Positions 28,293-36,298 of a DNA stretch of 46,120 nucleotides are shown piece after piece; positions within the stretch are counted from its first letter, which is position 1; the number at the start of each line of letters is the position of its first letter. A model generated the notes under the pieces. The model ran no database searches, was not told where the DNA came from, and saw only the letters and a list, made by a program, of their open reading frames with translations. The position numbers and the translations under genes are program-made. The DNA is from Acidimicrobiia bacterium (lineage in GTDB: Bacteria; Actinomycetota; Acidimicrobiia; Acidimicrobiales; SKKL01), in NCBI GenBank assembly GCA_016649895.1, contig JAENWR010000016.1, positions 1-46,120 of the forward strand, written 5' to 3'.

Positions 28293-28359
28293 CTCCACCG
28301 GTCAGAGCGTGATGGCGGGCATGATGCCCGCTGTCTACACAGCACCCTGACCAGTGGAG
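28293..28359. repeat. Nested inverted repeats in the IS30 leader
   Basis: CTCCACCGGTCAG (28293-28305) pairs with CTGACCAGTGGAG (28347-28359), 12 of 13 positions. The loop contains a second near-palindrome, GCGGGCATGATGCCCGC. The structure covers the region just before the transposase ATG and could mask its start or form part of the element's end. Confidence 0.6.
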
Positions 28360-28368
28360 ATCGCCAGC

Positions 28369-29356
28369 ATGCCAGCCGAACCGTTGACCGAGCACGACCG
28401 CGAGGAGATCCGCGCCGGGATCGAGCGTCAGGAGACCCTGACAGCGATCGCTGGGCGCCTGGGTCGGGACCGCACGACGGTCAGCCGTGAGGTGAACCGC
28501 AACGGTGGCCGCGACCGCTATCAGGCGTGTGAGGCGGGCCGCCGGGCCGAGCAGCAGCGGGCCCGCCCGAGGGTGTCGGTGCTGGGGGCTGACCCTGTAC
28601 TGGCCGCGCATGTTGAGGACCGCCTGCGGGCGAAGGACTCGCCGATGACGATCTCGGTCGAGCTCGACCGTGGCGTGTACCCCGACGTCGTGGGGCGGGT
28701 GTCGCACGAGACCCTCTACCGGGAGGTCCACGCGCAGGGCCGTCGCACGCTGCCCAAGGGTCTCCATGTCAACCTTCACCGGGGTCGGCGCTGCCGCAAG
28801 CACCGCCGCCGACCGGGTGAGGAACGGGCCGACCAAGGTTGGCCCGTTGGGTGCGTTCAACCTGATCGGGCTGCGCCCGACGGTCGCGGACGGCCGCAGC
28901 GAGGTCGGTCACTTCGAGGGCGACCTGATCGTGGGGTCGTTCAACCGGTCCGCGATCGTGACGGTGTTCGATCGGGCCAGCCGCAAGCTCTGGTTGGCGG
29001 ACTTCGCCGAGGACCACGGCGCGGACGCGACCCTCGCCGCGCTGGCCGAGATCTTGGAGCGGATCCCCCCGGAGCTGCGCCGCACCCTGGCGTGGGACCA
29101 GGGCCGCGAGATGGCCCGCCACCACGACCTCGCCGAGCTGTGCGGCATCGACATCTACCTCGCGGAGCCCCACAGCCCGTGGCAGCGCCCGACCAACGAG
29201 AACGGCAACGGTCTGATCCGCCGCTACGTCGGCAAGGGCACCGACCTGGGCCGCTTCAGCCCCGAAGATCTGCGCGTCATCGAGACGCGCATCAACACCA
29301 TGCCCCGCCGGGTGCTCGGCTGGGCCAACGCGGCCGAGGTGTTCGCCGCCGGCTGA
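28369..29356 (+). pseudogene. IS30-family transposase, frameshifted
   Basis: The N-terminal part (MPAEPLTEHDREEIRAGIER, then an HTH with AIAGRLGRDRTTVSREVNRN) is in one frame to about 28840. The catalytic part continues in the +1 frame from about 28850 (VGPLGAFNLIGLRP). The DDE triad is intact: Asp in GHFEGDLIVG (28922), Asp in LAWDQGREMA (29096) and Glu in PTNENGNGLIRRY (29198), with 33 residues between the last two, as in IS30. One extra base near 28810-28850 splits the gene. Terminal inverted repeats could not be defined, so the element's borders are unknown. Total coding length otherwise matches the family (about 330 aa). Confidence 0.85.
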
Positions 29357-29436: not shown

Positions 29437-29742
29437 ATGACCGACCACGGCTGGGTCACCGTCCGCGTGTAACTGGTCAGCGGCCCGACCGAGATGGAAC
29501 ACCCGCCCGGGCGGATCATGCTCGTCGGCCCCGGCCACACCTTCGCCGACCTCGCCGCCGCGATCGACACCGCGTTCGCCCGCTGGGACCTCGCCCACTC
29601 CCACGAGTTCCAACTCCCCGACGGGCGCCTCGTCGGCGCCCCCGATGACGACCTCGAAGACTTCGGGCTCGACCCAGTCCTCGACGACACCACCCTGGCC
29701 GTCACCAGCCACGTCCACGCCGGCGACACCTTCGCCTACACC
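29437..29742 (+). pseudogene. pRiA4b ORF-3-like gene, interrupted by a stop and 3'-truncated
   Basis: From ATG 29437 the frame reads MTDHGWVTVRV, then TAA (29470-29472), then in the same frame LVSGPTEMEHPPGRIMLVGP, HTFADLAAAIDTAFARWDLA and HSHEFQLPDGR. This is the N-terminal half of the plasmid pRiA4b ORF-3-like family (IS-passenger-like protein). The stop replaces what should be one sense codon. An ATG at 29494 could restart translation. At about 29742 family similarity ends and the same frame runs on to 29814 as the antisense of the hsdR fragment. The gene is both nonsense-mutated and cut. Confidence 0.7.
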
Positions 29743-29886
29743 GCCGATGAACGCGAGCAGCTCGGCGGTGTCGAGCCCCTGGGCAACGTCGTAGTGCTGG
29801 TTGACGCCCGCTGAGTAGCCGCCGCCCGTGGTGAGGGCTTCGACCACGTCGGTCTCGAACTGCCGTTCCGACACGTGTCCCGCCAT
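29740..29886 (-). pseudogene. hsdR: hsdR remnant: first about 49 codons of a type I restriction subunit
   Basis: ATG 29886 overlaps the hepT stop by one base (TGATG). The sequence MAGHVSERQFETDVVEALTT, then GGGYSAGVNQHYDVAQGLDT and AELLAFIGG, matches the N terminus of HsdR (SERxFE...GGY...LDTAELFAFI). At about 29740 it stops matching and reads into the antisense of the pRiA4b-like gene. The whole nuclease and DEAD translocase part (roughly 900 residues) is missing. Restriction by this system is therefore lost at this locus unless a second hsdR exists elsewhere. Confidence 0.75.
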
Positions 29887-30221
29887 CAGATCTCCCCCTC
29901 GATCACCCTGAGTTCGGCTACCAGCCGCGGCACATCGTCGCGGGCGGTCGACACCAGCACGTCGAGGTCGACCGACCAGTAGCCGTGCACGATCCGGTTC
30001 CGCAGCCGCACCGGGTCCGCCCATGCCACCTCTGGATGGTCGGCCTTCAGCTCGGCCGACACCTGCCCGGATCCCTCTCCGAGAACCGTGAAGTTCCACA
30101 GCAGCGCGTCGAGCAGGTCCCGGTCGGCAGCGGGACGTTCGGGGTCGAGACGGCCGACGAGGGCGACGATGCGCCCGGCCGCTTCGATCATCTCCCCCAG
30201 GAGGAGCCGGTCACGCGGCAT
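29886..30221 (-). CDS. hepT: HepT-like HEPN ribonuclease toxin
   Basis: A 111-aa all-helical protein (MPRDRLLLGEMIEAAGRIVA, LLDALLWNFTVLGEG). It has the HEPN RNase motif RX4HXY as R74-NRIV-H79-G-Y81 (LRNRIVHGYWSVD). In characterised MntA-HepT pairs, MntA adds AMP to the tyrosine of this motif and silences the RNase; Y81 is present here. The ATG at 30221 overlaps the mntA end by 11 nt and the stop overlaps the hsdR ATG by one base, so all are on one transcript. Confidence 0.88.
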   Translation of the reverse strand: MPRDRLLLGEMIEAAGRIVALVGRLDPERPAADRDLLDALLWNFTVLGEGSGQVSAELKADHPEVAWADPVRLRNRIVHGYWSVDLDVLVSTARDDVPRLVAELRVIEGEI

Positions 30222-30585
30222 ACAGCTCCCGGGCTTCGGCCAACACGTCGTCGCGCATCGCCCGGTGGAGCCCGGTCTTCGAGACGAGATCGACCTTCCG
30301 GCCGAACAGTTCCGACAGCTCATCCTCCAAGCGGTTGATCGAGAACCCCAGGTGCCGCCCTGGCGCCAGCGCGTACAGCAGGTCGATGTCGCTGGCGGCC
30401 CGGGCTTCACCACGAGCGACGGACCCGAAGACGGAGAGCTCCGCCACTCCGTACCGCTCGCACACGTCGGCCAGGCGTGCGCGGTATACCACCGTGCCGG
30501 CGATGACGACAGTCGAGGTGCCAGCGTCCATGGGCCCCATGGTCCCATCGCCGCCTTGCGGGTGCACGGATTCGTCCTCCCTCAT
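30211..30585 (-). CDS. mntA: MntA-like minimal nucleotidyltransferase antitoxin
   Basis: A 124-aa protein with the polymerase-beta motif GSVARGEARAASDID (G54, S55, D66, D68) and a third acidic residue in KVDLVS (D99). This is the AMP-transferring partner of HepT. The ATG at 30585 overlaps the hsdS stop (TGATG). The first about 20-30 residues (MREDESVHPQGGDGT) are not family-like, so an internal ATG at 30540 or 30531 is possible. It lies between hsdS and hsdR, embedding a toxin-antitoxin module within the R-M operon. Confidence 0.87.
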   Translation of the reverse strand: MREDESVHPQGGDGTMGPMDAGTSTVVIAGTVVYRARLADVCERYGVAELSVFGSVARGEARAASDIDLLYALAPGRHLGFSINRLEDELSELFGRKVDLVSKTGLHRAMRDDVLAEARELYAA

Positions 30586-31778
30586 CACGCCACCCCCGGC
30601 AAGCCGTCTATCCCGTGCGTGACCGCATGTGTGATCAACGCCTGCCGGTGCTCCTGTAGGAGCGAGATCTGGTCATCCAGCGCACGCTGGAGGTTGCGAC
30701 ATTGGTGGACGCCTGCGTTGAGACGCTCCACTGCTGCGGCTTGCGCATCGAGTGGCAGTAGAGGCACCCGGAACTCCGCGTAGCGAGAGGCCGAGACGTT
30801 CTCGATCGTGGCTTGGAAGGAAGCCTCCCGCACCTGGTCCCAGTAGTACTTCGATCTGGTGAAATGCATCATGTACTCGGGAAGTACACGCCGTCGGTCG
30901 GTCCGGACGCAGATGAGGTAGCCCGCGAAGCAGGCCGGCCCATCGCTATCCCGGTACAAGAAGGCCTTCCCTACGGTTGCGCCGCTTCGCGTAAGGAGAA
31001 GGTCGCCATCCCGGAGGATGTAGGGCTGCGCAACCTCTGGAGCGAGCGACCTGAAGGTGTCCGAGCGAAGGCCGCCTTCCGGCGTCATGTCCGTAGTTCG
31101 GATGTACCTCGGCCAGCCCCCTTCCGCGCTCATCCCCGGCTCTGCTGCCCCGTAGGCAAGTGGCGCTGCGAGCAGGTGCTTCAACCGCCACGAAACCCCT
31201 GAGGCGAACACATCATCCACGAGGGCGGTCAGCCTCTCGCCGAGTAGCACGCTCTGGTGGCGCTGCTCGGCGATGAGTTCGTCGATGCGGGAGGTCTCGG
31301 CGTCGGGGTAGTCGGCGATTCGCTGCTGCTCCTCCAGCCGATGGAGCACGATTGGGACCATGCCGAGATCCTCGGCGTTCAGGTGAGGTTGTGCTGCACG
31401 ATTCTTCGCAACCGCGATCGAGTGGGCTGCCACTTGTCCGAGCAATGAGTAAGCCAAGAAGCGGGGCTTGATGGCGCTCATTGGTGTGAGGCGGAGGTCA
31501 TAGCCTGGTGCAGATCCAGCCCATTGTTCGGTGACGAGAGCTGAGTCGCCGGTGTACGCGCCGCTTCTCACGACGAGTACCTCTCCGGCGTCTAGGAGCG
31601 GTGTTCGCTGAAGCGGAAGGTCCTCCGCCGCAGCAAAGATCAGATCCTTCGACACGATTCGCCCGCGCTCGATATTGGTCGCTCGAAGGATGGGTACCCC
31701 GGAATCGGTGAGCGGCGGTGGCTGACCCAGACCGTAGGTGATGCGAGCAATCCGTTTGAGGGGGACCGCCGCGCTCAC
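30585..31778 (-). CDS. hsdS: Type I restriction-modification specificity subunit HsdS
   Basis: A 397-aa full-length HsdS. Target-recognition domain 1 (PLKRIARITYGLGQPPPLTD, ATNIERGRIV, RAAQPHLNAEDL) is followed by the central conserved helix (LEEQQRIADYPDAETSRIDE, LIAEQ). Target-recognition domain 2 (WPRYIRTTDMTPEGGLRSDT, GDLLLTRSGATVGKAFLY) is followed by the distal helix (ALDDQISLLQEHRQALITHA). The GTG start overlaps the hsdM stop by 4 nt (GTGA). No frameshift is seen. It sets the bipartite DNA target for HsdM; the site cannot be predicted by eye. Confidence 0.92.
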   Translation of the reverse strand: MSAAVPLKRIARITYGLGQPPPLTDSGVPILRATNIERGRIVSKDLIFAAAEDLPLQRTPLLDAGEVLVVRSGAYTGDSALVTEQWAGSAPGYDLRLTPMSAIKPRFLAYSLLGQVAAHSIAVAKNRAAQPHLNAEDLGMVPIVLHRLEEQQRIADYPDAETSRIDELIAEQRHQSVLLGERLTALVDDVFASGVSWRLKHLLAAPLAYGAAEPGMSAEGGWPRYIRTTDMTPEGGLRSDTFRSLAPEVAQPYILRDGDLLLTRSGATVGKAFLYRDSDGPACFAGYLICVRTDRRRVLPEYMMHFTRSKYYWDQVREASFQATIENVSASRYAEFRVPLLPLDAQAAAVERLNAGVHQCRNLQRALDDQISLLQEHRQALITHAVTHGIDGLPGVA

Positions 31779-33840
31779 TCGGTCACCTCTGCGAGGAGCT
31801 TGAGGATGCGCTGCTGGCTGGCCCTGATGTGGGCGTCGATCTCGGCCAACGGACGGGGCGGGACGTACTTGTAGAAGTGCCGGGTGAACGGAACCTCGTA
31901 GCCCACCTTGGTCTTGGACTCGTCAACCCGTGCATCGGGCGCGTACGGGAGCACCTCCCGCTCGATGAACGCGTTGATGTCCTCGCTCAGCGGGATGCTC
32001 TCGGTGTCGCGCAGGTTGGGGTCCGGCTGCACGACGCCCTTGCGATCGGTGACGGGGTCACCATCGGGGTCGTGGACGGCGAGGTCGGCGAGGATCGCCT
32101 TGGCCTGCGGCTTGGTGACACCGAGTGCCCACGCGATGTCGCCGGTCGCACCCTCCTCCGATTCCCATCCCAGGTCGGTCCACACCGCGATCGCCTCGGG
32201 CACGAGCACCAGCTCGAGGTCCTCGATCGTGGCGGCGCTGGTTCCCTCGAGGTTGTCGAGCTCCCGCCTGATCACCTTCTGCATGTCGTCATCGAGCCTG
32301 GCGACGGTTCTACCGCTGAGGACCTTCGCGGAGGTCTCGGCGGTGACCTCGTAGCGGATCCGCAATGGTCGCTCGACCGTGATCTTGTGGTAGCCGAAGG
32401 CCTCGTTCGGCAGCACCTTCGACCGGTCGCCCTCGGTGAAGTCCTCGTAGAGAGCGGTGACCTCCGCGATGTGCTCGGGTGTCAGCTCGTTGCGCTTGTT
32501 CCCGAGGCTCTTGCGCATCTTGGAGTAGAGCTCTCGGGCGTCGATGAGCTGCACCTTGCCGTGGCGCTCGGGGCGCTTCCGGTTGGTGACCACCCAGACG
32601 TAGGTGCTGATGCCGGTGTTGTAGAAGAGCTGGTCGGGCAGCCCGATGATGGCGTCGAGCCAGTCGTTCTCGATGATCCAGCGGCGGATCTCGCTCATGC
32701 CGGAACCGGCGTCGCTGGAGAACAGCGGCGACCCGTTGAACACGACGGCGATCCGGCTGCCGCCGTCCTCGACCGGGCGCATCTTGGAGATGTCTGTTGG
32801 AGGAACAGGATCTGGCCGTCGGAGGTGGCGGGGAGTCCGGCGCCGAAGCGGCCGTCGAAGCCCTGGTTCGCGTGCTCCTTCTTGATCGCCTTCTCGATCG
32901 TCTTCCAGTCCTTGCCGTACGGCGGGTTGGCCAGCATGTAGTCGAACCGCTTGCCCTTGTGGCCGTCCTCGGTGAACGAATCACCGAACACGATCTCGGA
33001 CGCGTTCTGTCCCTTCAGGAACATGTCGGTGCGACACACCGCGTAGGACTCGGGCTGCAGCTCCTGGCCGAACAGGTGCAGGCGGGCCGAGGGGTTGATC
33101 TGGCGCAGGTGATCCTCGGCCACCGTGAGCATCCCGCCGGTGCCGCATGCCGGGTCGTACACGGTGAAGATCTTCGACGGGAGCTGGAGACGGTCGTCGT
33201 CGGCGAAGAGCACGTTCACCATCAGCTCGATCACCTCGCGCGGGGTGAAGTGCTCGCCGGCTTCCTCGTTCGAGAGGTCGGCGGTGACCCGGACGAGCTC
33301 CTCGTAGATGTAGCCCATCTCCAAGTTGGAGACGACGCTGGGGTGCAGGTCGATCTCGGCGAACTGCTGGACGACCATGTAGAGGATCTTGGCCTCGGCC
33401 ATCTTGTCGATCTGGTTCGGCAGACCGAACCTCACGAGGGCGTCGCGAGCGTTCGGCGAGAACCCCCGGACGTAGGCGTGGACGTTGCGACGGATGTTGT
33501 GCTGGTCGGCCAGCAGGCTGGCGAAGGTGAACTTGGAGGCGTTCCAGAACGGCTGCCCGGCCACGTGCGCCAACACGTCGGTCGCGGCATCCCACTTCGC
33601 CGGGCCCAGTTCATCGGCCTTGGCCACCACGCCCTTGGTGGGCTCGAGGACGCAGTCGAGGCGGCGGAGCACGCAGAACGGAAGGATCACGTCCTGGTAC
33701 TGGTGGCGCTTGTAGTGGTCGCGCAGGGTCTCCTTCACCGACCAGATGAAGTTCAGCTTCTCGCGCTGTCGAGCGCTCAGCTCGTGACGGGATCCGGCCG
33801 TCGACCCGTGATCGGTGTTGACGCTGGCCTGCTCTGCCAC
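31775..33840 (-). pseudogene. hsdM: Type I R-M methyltransferase HsdM, single frameshift
   Basis: GTG 33840 after GAGGA. The first 349 residues are a standard HsdM: FIWSVKETLRDHYKRHQYQD, the SAM-binding VYDPACGTGGM (about 228-237) and the catalytic YMLANPPYG (about 301-309). After SDGQILFLQQ, near 32793, the frame breaks. It resumes one frame over with SKMRPVEDGGSRIAVVFNGS and continues to LKLLAEVTE at 31775. A single-base indel explains it; all family blocks before and after are present (about 690 residues). It is either a phase or inactivating mutation or a base error. It is the first gene of the operon with hsdS, mntA, hepT and the hsdR remnant. Confidence 0.88.
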
Positions 33841-33945: not shown

Positions 33946-34872
33946 TCAGAGGCGAACCAGCGGCGCGAAGAGCGCAGCGCGCTGCGCGTGGCGCGCACCG
34001 TCGTCGGGCCGCCCGCTGTCGATGTCGTAGAGCGCCCACTCGACGCATCGAGCCAGACCCCAGCCCGCCAGTCGCCCGGGGCCGAGGTCGAGGAGGTCGG
34101 CCAGGCGCTCGACACGGCCACGGACGACATCGAGGGGGTCGAGCTCGTCGAGCACCTCGCCCGACTGCAGGACCAGTTGCACCGGATCGAAGGCGGGGTC
34201 ACCCACCTGGGGCTTGGGGTCGATCGCCAGCCACCCACGCTGGTGCAGGAGCACGTTGCCGGGGTGCAGGTCGTGGTGGAGCACCACCTGCCGTGTTGCG
34301 GTCGTCGGCAGCGTCCGTAGCAGCTCGAGCGCGGTGTCCACCAGGTCCTGGGGGAGCGGTTCTCCGAGGCGCGCTTGGCGTTCGGCCACCAGGTCGGCGA
34401 ACCAACCGGCGACCTCGGCGAGCGACTCGAACGGGTGCCCGTCGGGTGCGGGCACCCAGGTCTGGCGCAGCACCCGGGCGCCGGCGTCGATGATGGCATC
34501 GGGGTCGCCGAGGAGGGTGAGGGGCGTCCCCGGCCGGCACCGCTCGATGAGCATCGCGTCCTCGTCGGGGGCGTGAGCCAGCAGCTCCACCGCGCCCTCG
34601 CCGCCCCAGGCGGTGAGCGCGGCTGCTTCATGCCGCGCCTCCCGGTGAGGGATCACGACCTTGGCCACGGCGTGGCCGCCGTCGGCCTGTCGGACCGGCG
34701 CCACCCACGCGGTGACACCGCCGGGCTCGAACGGCGCCAGGATCTCGATGTCCCAGAGATCGCTGAGCCGCTCGAGCCGGTTCGACAGCTCAGGGAGCCA
34801 CTTCGACGCGGTGTCGTCCTCCCAGCCCTCGATCGACGTGGCGAGCAGCGGCGGGATGCGGATGGGCGCCAT
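33946..34872 (-). CDS. APH(6)/hydroxyurea-resistance-type kinase
   Basis: A 308-aa aminoglycoside-phosphotransferase-fold protein. The Brenner-type catalytic loop is VVLHHDLHPGNVLL, the metal-binding segment is LAIDPKPQVGDPAFDPVQLV, and the N-lobe WVAPVRQADGGHAVAKVVIP supplies the ATP lysine. This matches the streptomycin 6-kinase/hydroxyurea kinase family (APH_6_hur). Actual resistance activity is not implied; many homologues act on unknown small molecules. The start MAPIRIPPLL at 34872 is chosen because the upstream reading is Ser/Pro-rich noise. The roughly 100 nt between this gene's stop and hsdM show nothing specific. Confidence 0.85.
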   Translation of the reverse strand: MAPIRIPPLLATSIEGWEDDTASKWLPELSNRLERLSDLWDIEILAPFEPGGVTAWVAPVRQADGGHAVAKVVIPHREARHEAAALTAWGGEGAVELLAHAPDEDAMLIERCRPGTPLTLLGDPDAIIDAGARVLRQTWVPAPDGHPFESLAEVAGWFADLVAERQARLGEPLPQDLVDTALELLRTLPTTATRQVVLHHDLHPGNVLLHQRGWLAIDPKPQVGDPAFDPVQLVLQSGEVLDELDPLDVVRGRVERLADLLDLGPGRLAGWGLARCVEWALYDIDSGRPDDGARHAQRAALFAPLVRL

Positions 34873-34897
34873 CGCGTCGACGCTACGCCCGGTCCGG

Positions 34898-36298
34898 TCA
34901 GATCGCCTCGGCCGGGGTCGGGGGATCGGTGAGCCGATCGATCTCGGCGTTGCGCCGCTCGCGTCGCCACCACCAGATGGCCCCGACCGGCACGATGACG
35001 ACGAGGAGGGGGATGACGAGGCCCAGTACAACGACGGCCACGGCCAGCGCCCACTGGAGGGCGCCGAACCCCGAGGCCAGGCTGTCGCCGAAGCCCGGCA
35101 GCGACTCGTCGGCGGTCACGGTGAGCTCCACCGGGGTGATGGGCGTCTCGACGCCGATGCGCAGGTGCGTGCCCAATTCGTCGACCGGCACCGCCGACAC
35201 ATCGGGGTGGGGCTGCTCGTCGGTGGCGGCGACGAACCGGGCCCACGCGGTGATGCTGTCGCCGGGTGCCAGCTCGTCGTCGGCTGCGAAGTCGACGATG
35301 GTGACATCGTCGGGGTCGAGGCCCAGGTTGTGGTCGCGCACCTCGAGCTCGGTGAGCGAGACGTTCCCCGAGTTCTCGATGGTGAGGCAGAGCACCATCT
35401 GGTCGCCCTCGTCGACCGTGAGCTCGTCGTCGCCCGGGCAGCGAGCCCCGTCGTCGTCGCCCACGTAGGTGCTGACCTCGATGTCCATCGACGGGGTGGC
35501 CTGGGGCTGGGTGATCGTCAGCGTGATGGTGGCGAGCGACACCTGGTCCTGCAGGGTGCGCAGCTGGCCCCGCATCTGTTCGAGCGAGGTCTCGCGCTGG
35601 AGCAGCTGGCCTTCGAGGGCCGCGACCGTCTCGAGGTTCGGTGCCTGGTCGAGCATCTGCCGCAGCCGCTCCACCGACACCTCGGTGCTGGCGATCTGGC
35701 TCTGCAGGTCGACCACCCGTTCGGTGACGTCGTCGGCGCTGATGTCCTGGCGGATCACCTCGCCGAGCCCGCCGAGCGCTTCGAGTGCCGGGCCGAAGCT
35801 CTCCGGCGTCACCTTGAACACGAGCACGGTGCGGGGCTGCGGATCCGTCGTCGTCTCCTGGCCGAACACCAGGCCACCGAGCGCGCTCACCCGCAGCTGT
35901 GCCTCGCGGCTGGCGGCGGCGACGTTGTCGGTCTGCAGCTCGACGGTGGCGGTGTAGACGATCGACCGACCGATGTCGGCCGGGGTCAACACCACGGGAG
36001 CGATGCCACCCGCCCCCGCCTCGTCCTGGTCCGCGGTGGGGGTCTCGCTGGACTCCTCGCCGGCCGTGCCCTCGGCCCCGCCCGAAGCCCGGCCGGCATC
36101 GCTGTCGGATGGAGCCCCTCCGTCGGAGCCCGAGCCGTCCCCGGCGTCTGTCGCCATCTCGGCCGAGTCGCTGTCGTCGCCGCCGGTCGAGCAGGCGCCG
36201 AGCAGGAGCAGCGTCGCAGCGGCCAGCGCCACGAGCAGACGCACCCCGCCACGCCGATGGCGTCCTCGTTCGCGTGATCGGGTGTCAGTGCTGGCCAT
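34898..36298 (-). CDS. DUF4349 lipoprotein with an inserted beta-rich domain
   Basis: A 466-aa protein. The signal peptide ends in a lipobox LLLGACSTGG (C36), followed by an acidic Ser/Gly linker. DUF4349 starts near residue 90 (VYTATVELQTDNVAAASREA) and includes a long coiled coil (VVDLQSQIASTEVSVERLRQ to EGQLLQRETSLEQMRGQLRT). Before the C-terminal membrane helix (WALAVAVVVLGLVIPLLVVI) there is an extra segment with two Cys (ARCPGDDELTVDEGDQMVLC, LTIENSGNVSLTELEVRDHN) resembling a DUF11/CARDB-like beta-sandwich. In most relatives the coiled coil runs straight to the membrane helix. The function is unknown; it is likely envelope-associated. Confidence 0.82.
   Translation of the reverse strand: MASTDTRSRERGRHRRGGVRLLVALAAATLLLLGACSTGGDDSDSAEMATDAGDGSGSDGGAPSDSDAGRASGGAEGTAGEESSETPTADQDEAGAGGIAPVVLTPADIGRSIVYTATVELQTDNVAAASREAQLRVSALGGLVFGQETTTDPQPRTVLVFKVTPESFGPALEALGGLGEVIRQDISADDVTERVVDLQSQIASTEVSVERLRQMLDQAPNLETVAALEGQLLQRETSLEQMRGQLRTLQDQVSLATITLTITQPQATPSMDIEVSTYVGDDDGARCPGDDELTVDEGDQMVLCLTIENSGNVSLTELEVRDHNLGLDPDDVTIVDFAADDELAPGDSITAWARFVAATDEQPHPDVSAVPVDELGTHLRIGVETPITPVELTVTADESLPGFGDSLASGFGALQWALAVAVVVLGLVIPLLVVIVPVGAIWWWRRERRNAEIDRLTDPPTPAEAI

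Follow-up and report, generated by a model that had tools for sequence, protein, structure and literature searches.

A MntA-HepT gene pair as likely cargo at the hsdS-hsdR junction of a decayed type I restriction-modification operon

Several described type I restriction-modification (R-M) operons carry toxin or defence genes among their hsd genes. In enteropathogenic Escherichia coli, the DarTG2 toxin-antitoxin (TA) pair of the RRDM island lies between hsdS and hsdR of one operon, where its authors see a potential hotspot of recombination for defence systems (PMC12255303), while the HEPN-fold RNase PrrC is encoded within the type IC EcoprrI operon (PMC3506569, PMC3710099, PMC12707154), and the two-gene defence module TgvAB interrupts the type I operon of Vibrio cholerae VPI-2 and acts without HsdR activity (PMC11411939). 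The clustering of HEPN proteins with R-M genes has been reviewed (PMC3710099), and MNT-HEPN modules are known to be mobile and TA-like (PMC2701414). Class I MntA-HepT pairs are defined by their motifs, and the antitoxin MntA neutralises the RNase by attaching AMPs to the tyrosine in the HepT RX4HXY motif (PMC7641770). Here we analyse a stretch of 46,120 nucleotides (nt) from contig JAENWR010000016.1 of an Acidimicrobiia bacterium (the window), whose minus strand carries the gene order hsdM-hsdS-mntA-hepT-hsdR, as verified from open reading frames (ORFs) and Pfam domains. In our view this locus is probably a decayed type I R-M operon into which a type VII MntA-HepT pair was taken up as accessory cargo at the hsdS/hsdR junction.

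The embedded pair and its insertion site

The hsdM, hsdS and hsdR genes of a type I system stand together in the window, with hsdR present only as a 48-codon stub, and the two intervening genes have the features of a Class I MntA-HepT (type VII) pair. The predicted MNT adenylyltransferase antitoxin gene mntA (30211..30585, minus strand) matches NTP_transf_2 (1e-12, 48.6 bits), and the adjacent hepT (29886..30221, minus strand), predicted to encode a HEPN RNase toxin of 111 amino acids (aa), matches the HepT-like family with 58.1 bits against a Pfam cut-off of 23.5 bits, so that both members of this PF01909 and PF01934 pair lie above the Pfam cut-off. MntA carries the GSX10DXD motif as GS-x10-DID and HepT carries RX4HXY as RNRIVHGY; the R and H of the latter are invariant in an alignment of 21 homologues, and the key motif residues of both proteins are invariant or nearly so across the 21, in agreement with a preliminary description of this DNA that had both motifs kept. 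Sequence searches against solved structures returned no match for HepT and one for MntA, the structural-genomics MNT protein 1wot. The pair is probably co-transcribed with the hsd genes, and we infer that it is a working or recently working TA pair expressed from the hsd message.

The pair is packed closely between its neighbours, a full-length hsdS of 397 aa (30585..31778, minus strand; Methylase_S 1.6e-9, PADLOC Specificity_I 4e-47) and the 5' stub of hsdR (29743..29886, minus strand), which was recognised by end-to-end alignment to the HsdR N-terminus of the nearest relative (G399/L260) and of other HsdRs. The overlaps of hsdM with hsdS (4 nt, 31775-31778), of mntA with hepT (11 nt, 30211-30221) and of hepT with hsdR (1 nt at 29886, the hsdR ATG lying on the hepT stop) agree with the ends of homologues. 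The 1-nt overlap of hsdS with mntA holds only if mntA starts at ATG 30585, and homologue N-termini point rather to ATG 30540 or 30531, which would leave 44-53 nt between the two genes. Three of the four predicted overlaps are firm, and the hsdS/mntA overlap is not clearly backed by homologues; in the series of 4, 1, 11 and 1 nt first reported, the second value hinges on the choice of start.

Comparison with relatives that lack the pair indicates how it came to sit there. The nearest HsdM relative, Acidimicrobiaceae palsa_743 (G399; 76% HsdM identity), passes directly from hsdS to hsdR through the sequence TGATG and carries no cargo, and HepT was not found in its genome. An annotated Rhodococcus opacus plasmid is likewise cargo-free, with the arrangement hsdM-(4 nt)-hsdS-(1 nt)-hsdR. 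In the window, this comparison of filled and empty sites places one TGATG at the hsdS end, forming the left insert edge (30583..30587, minus strand), and another at the hsdR start, forming the right edge (29884..29888, minus strand), with 699 nt from copy to copy. Because relatives with an empty site exist and TGATG stands at both ends of the insert, the pair appears to be exact, scarless cargo at a stop/start junction. The same slot is empty in G399 and R. opacus and holds other cargo in most related operons. The preliminary description had taken the pair to be locked inside the operon. Its embedding between hsdS and hsdR, with the hsdR start within the hepT stop and a gene order that recurs elsewhere, stands; the locking does not, since close relatives have hsdM-hsdS-hsdR without the pair and embedding arose several times from free-standing pairs. 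The idea that this R-M lineage carries the pair as a constant component was rejected, as in close relatives the slot is empty or occupied by other genes, among them FRG, Schlafen and Fic.

Recurrence of cargo between hsdS and hsdR

The hsdS-hsdR junction is occupied in many operons other than that of the window. We surveyed 80 HsdM relatives with flanks of up to 10 kb together with the Rhodococcus plasmid, and 55 operons, plasmid included, were readable over the whole span between hsdM and hsdR; 40 of these 55 carry cargo in the gap. In 29 of the 40 the first cargo gene begins no more than 25 nt from the stop codon of hsdS, mostly with a 4-nt overlap, in 23 the last one stops no more than 25 nt from hsdR, and packing is tight at both ends in 19, although one operon scored as compact (L109) is misparsed. 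This cargo is mostly toxin- or defence-like by predicted family, comprising FRG (14), Schlafen AlbA_2 (7), Fic (4), ABC/AAA, caspase-like, RhuM and HepT genes, with PIN-type TA genes in L074 and L106, and the hsdM-hsdS gap elsewhere holds RhuM, DUF1016/YhcG, Abi_2 and other genes. Since cargo elsewhere is packed equally tightly, the tight packing seen in the window follows the rule and is no mark of a special circuit. In the Brocadiia operon L074 (6235-9129) both gaps are filled, the hsdM-hsdS gap by an MNT gene and the hsdS-hsdR gap by a UPF0175/PIN-like TA pair.

The full order hsdM-hsdS-mntA-hepT-hsdR, which the preliminary description had proposed to seek in related genomes, does recur with the pair between hsdS and hsdR. 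It is found in Dechloromonas (L124, where a further gene separates hsdM from hsdS), in damaged form in Methylomonas (L129), and in three genomes of a single genus in the phylum of the window (L149, L201 and L195), of which L149 has the same 11-nt mntA/hepT and 1-nt hepT/hsdR overlaps as the window. Other orders occur as well, with hsdM-mntA-hepT-hsdS-hsdR in L163 and mntA-hepT ahead of hsdS in L078, from an Acidimicrobiia metagenome-assembled genome. Two further observations concern these loci. About 3.6 kb of additional, stacked cargo lies between hsdS and mntA in L195 (2728-6328; G094) and is missing from the related G137 operon. Across two proteobacterial groups, the HepT encoded in Dechloromonas (within L124 14612-15419) and residues 1-60 of the damaged Methylomonas HepT (within L129 14683-15340) are 92% identical, which suggests that a cassette hsdS-mntA-hepT-hsdR was recently transferred.

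Embedded pairs do not trace to one event. In the MntA+HepT tree, embedding needs 6 changes (gains or losses), all forced by supported branches, and a single origin was rejected on the ground that at least six are forced. The window pair groups with the free-standing pairs of L009 and L046, both surrounded by housekeeping genes, and those plasmid relatives of the pair that were examined lie outside hsd operons.

Such mobility also feeds the alternative that survives best, namely that the pair moved into a defence island without any functional significance and that its close packing only reflects the removal of non-coding DNA. Most of the pairs found in the phylum do lie outside hsd operons. Against this, the phylum sample of 396 genomes contains about 200 HsdM_N loci (hand-summed), occupying roughly 0.1% of bases, and yet 4 of about 110 MntA/HepT loci, besides that of the window, are embedded; the cargo at the slot is moreover enriched in toxin families. 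Because three of the four cases come from one genus, the excess over random placement is real but modest, and we regard chance clustering as possible but rather unlikely.

Lesions in hsdM and hsdR

Both catalytic subunit genes of the operon are broken, as had been recognised from the outset. The 5' part of hsdM (32797..33840, minus strand; Pfam HsdM_N 5e-19 and N6_Mtase 9e-35) is intact up to the frameshift and 76% identical to the intact HsdM of L057, the nearest relative, whose uninterrupted 648-aa hsdM served as reference for the lesion. DNA alignment to L057 locates a net 1-nt deletion at 32792..32793 (minus strand), beyond which the 3' part continues in a shifted frame (31775..32782, minus strand; N6_Mtase 9.5e-20, PADLOC MTase_I model positions 337-660 of 661). 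The hsdR gene is cut after codon 48 and fused at 29742/29743 to a shortened pRiA4b-ORF3-like gene that meets the stub head-on (29494..29742, plus strand); the match to PRiA4_ORF3 (E 0.0016) is below cut-off, and the junction is seen in the sequence. Next to it lies a degraded IS30-family transposase gene (28354..29356, plus strand), split over two overlapping ORFs in different frames that cover positions 2-109 and 117-267 of the 267-position NCBIfam IS30 model, so that the DNA-binding and catalytic parts are in separate frames; it is the sole copy found in the draft genome. As pRiA4b-ORF3-like genes adjoin transposases in two plasmids (L249 and L250), a mobile element is suggested as the cause of the hsdR break. 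With hsdM frameshifted and hsdR truncated, neither a functional M nor a functional R subunit was found here and, to judge from the reading frames, restriction is lost at this operon and methylation is probably lost too.

Other hsd genes occur in the same draft genome. Two more truncated hsdR pieces (L147 9522-10292 and L148 7738-9057, on contigs C17 and C9) were considered as the missing hsdR of this operon and rejected, because neither overlaps the 48-codon stub and they are therefore not assignable to it. A separate type I system on contig C116 has long open frames for an HsdM of 606 aa and an HsdR of 1058 aa. Just upstream of hsdM in the window, on the same strand, is an APH(6)/hydroxyurea-kinase-like gene (33946-35031).

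The contrast between an intact pair and broken hsd genes invites the explanation that mntA-hepT was a purely selfish passenger, which stabilised the operon and survived R-M decay as an addiction module whose loss is costly. The mobile, TA-like nature of MNT-HEPN modules (PMC2701414) would fit such behaviour. However, hsdS is likewise intact, and the genome has other HepT loci, so that nothing points to specific retention. Together hsdM and hsdS, about 3.1 kb, show one small lesion, and at this rate roughly 700 nt of lesion-free mntA-hepT would be expected by chance with about 80% probability; given this expectation and the intact hsdS, the intactness of the pair is no sign of selective retention. 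We found no evidence for the selfish persistence after R-M decay that had been put forward in the preliminary description, and consider this explanation unlikely.

A still less probable explanation is that the operon is intact in the organism and that an assembly artefact accounts for the hsdR/pRiA4 junction or for the frameshift in hsdM. The draft assembly consists of 171 contigs, and a sequencing or assembly error is conceivable at either break, but the IS30 and pRiA4 genes near the junction are themselves degraded or shortened, as in genuine decay, and the hsdS-mntA-hepT-hsdR order stands whichever way this is settled.

Several points nevertheless weigh against a decayed operon with a captured type VII pair. 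A misassembly might account for the frameshift in hsdM. MntA (46 bits) and HepT (23.7 bits) score below the NCBIfam equivalog cut-offs of 60, which are annotation thresholds and no biological definition; by these scores the two proteins are divergent members outside the NCBIfam curated core, and the type VII mechanism consequently rests on the motifs and Pfam. The empty-site operon of G399 is spread over two contigs, one ending in the 5' part of hsdS and the other starting in its 3' part, and was joined by reasoning on an 8-nt contig overlap, with the hsdS-hsdR junction itself lying within one contig. Finally, the free-standing status of some sister pairs (L034 and L184) is uncertain because their short contigs give incomplete context.

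Control of HepT and comparison with known systems

Taken as a whole, the locus is likely an ordinary embedded TA or abortive-defence cargo in a dead R-M operon. In such an arrangement the pair would be translated from the same message as the hsd genes, and MntA would AMPylate the tyrosine of the HepT RX4HXY motif and thereby hold the RNase inactive. If MntA were lost or failed, HepT would cut RNA and stop growth, and this release could have added a second layer of defence, or an addiction effect, to restriction. With restriction now lost, and methylation probably too, the pair would at most work alone.

It is very unlikely that HsdM, HsdS and HsdR or the methylation state restrain HepT in the manner of a guardian, with inhibition of R-M unleashing the RNase, for although the HEPN-fold RNase PrrC is likewise encoded in an hsd operon and held latent by EcoprrI (PMC3506569, PMC3710099) and the embedding of mntA-hepT recurs, the pair has its own dedicated antitoxin with an intact catalytic motif, which disfavours direct PrrC-like control, its close relatives occur without an R-M neighbour, the embedded pairs form no clade of their own, and broken hsdM and hsdR would mean constitutive release, yet hepT is intact. 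Similarly, no evidence was found for the earlier suggestion that loss of methylation was once linked to RNase toxicity; known HepT is controlled by MntA AMPylation (PMC7641770), not by methylation. We give little credence to the broader proposal that the reason for repeated, independent recruitment of mntA-hepT to the slot is that translational coupling or physical contact with the Hsd complex turns HepT into a sensor of R-M failure, and the pair into a two-component, AMPylation-controlled counterpart of PrrC.

The locus provides a clear pair of filled and empty sites for cargo capture at the hsdS/hsdR junction, and strengthens the case for a general docking slot at this junction in which suicide or defence genes settle. 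Intact loci in which coupling between R-M and toxin could be probed are available in Dechloromonas (L124) and, within the same phylum, in G048 (L149) or G137 (L201). Methanocaldococcus jannaschii may carry an hsd locus of a similar kind.

Among characterised pairs, HepT/MntA of Shewanella oneidensis (SO_3166/SO_3165; PMC7641770, PMC4621449) shares with the present one the RX4HXY toxin and GSX10DXD antitoxin, the PF01934 and PF01909 families and the Class I assignment, whereas the pair described here sits inside an hsd operon and its activity is predicted from sequence. DarTG2 occupies the same position between hsdS and hsdR, yet its toxin ADP-ribosylates DNA where HepT is a predicted HEPN RNase, it is accompanied by the RptR repressor, and it lies in an intact, active R-M system. 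PrrC, a single ABC-HEPN protein, is under the control of the Hsd complex, in contrast to the predicted RNase of the window, which comes with an MNT antitoxin of its own and has no known Hsd contact, and TgvAB is a modification-dependent restriction system and no TA pair. Because such passengers recur at the hsdS-hsdR site in many bacteria, the window is best placed among them as a fresh, decayed example of a known arrangement.

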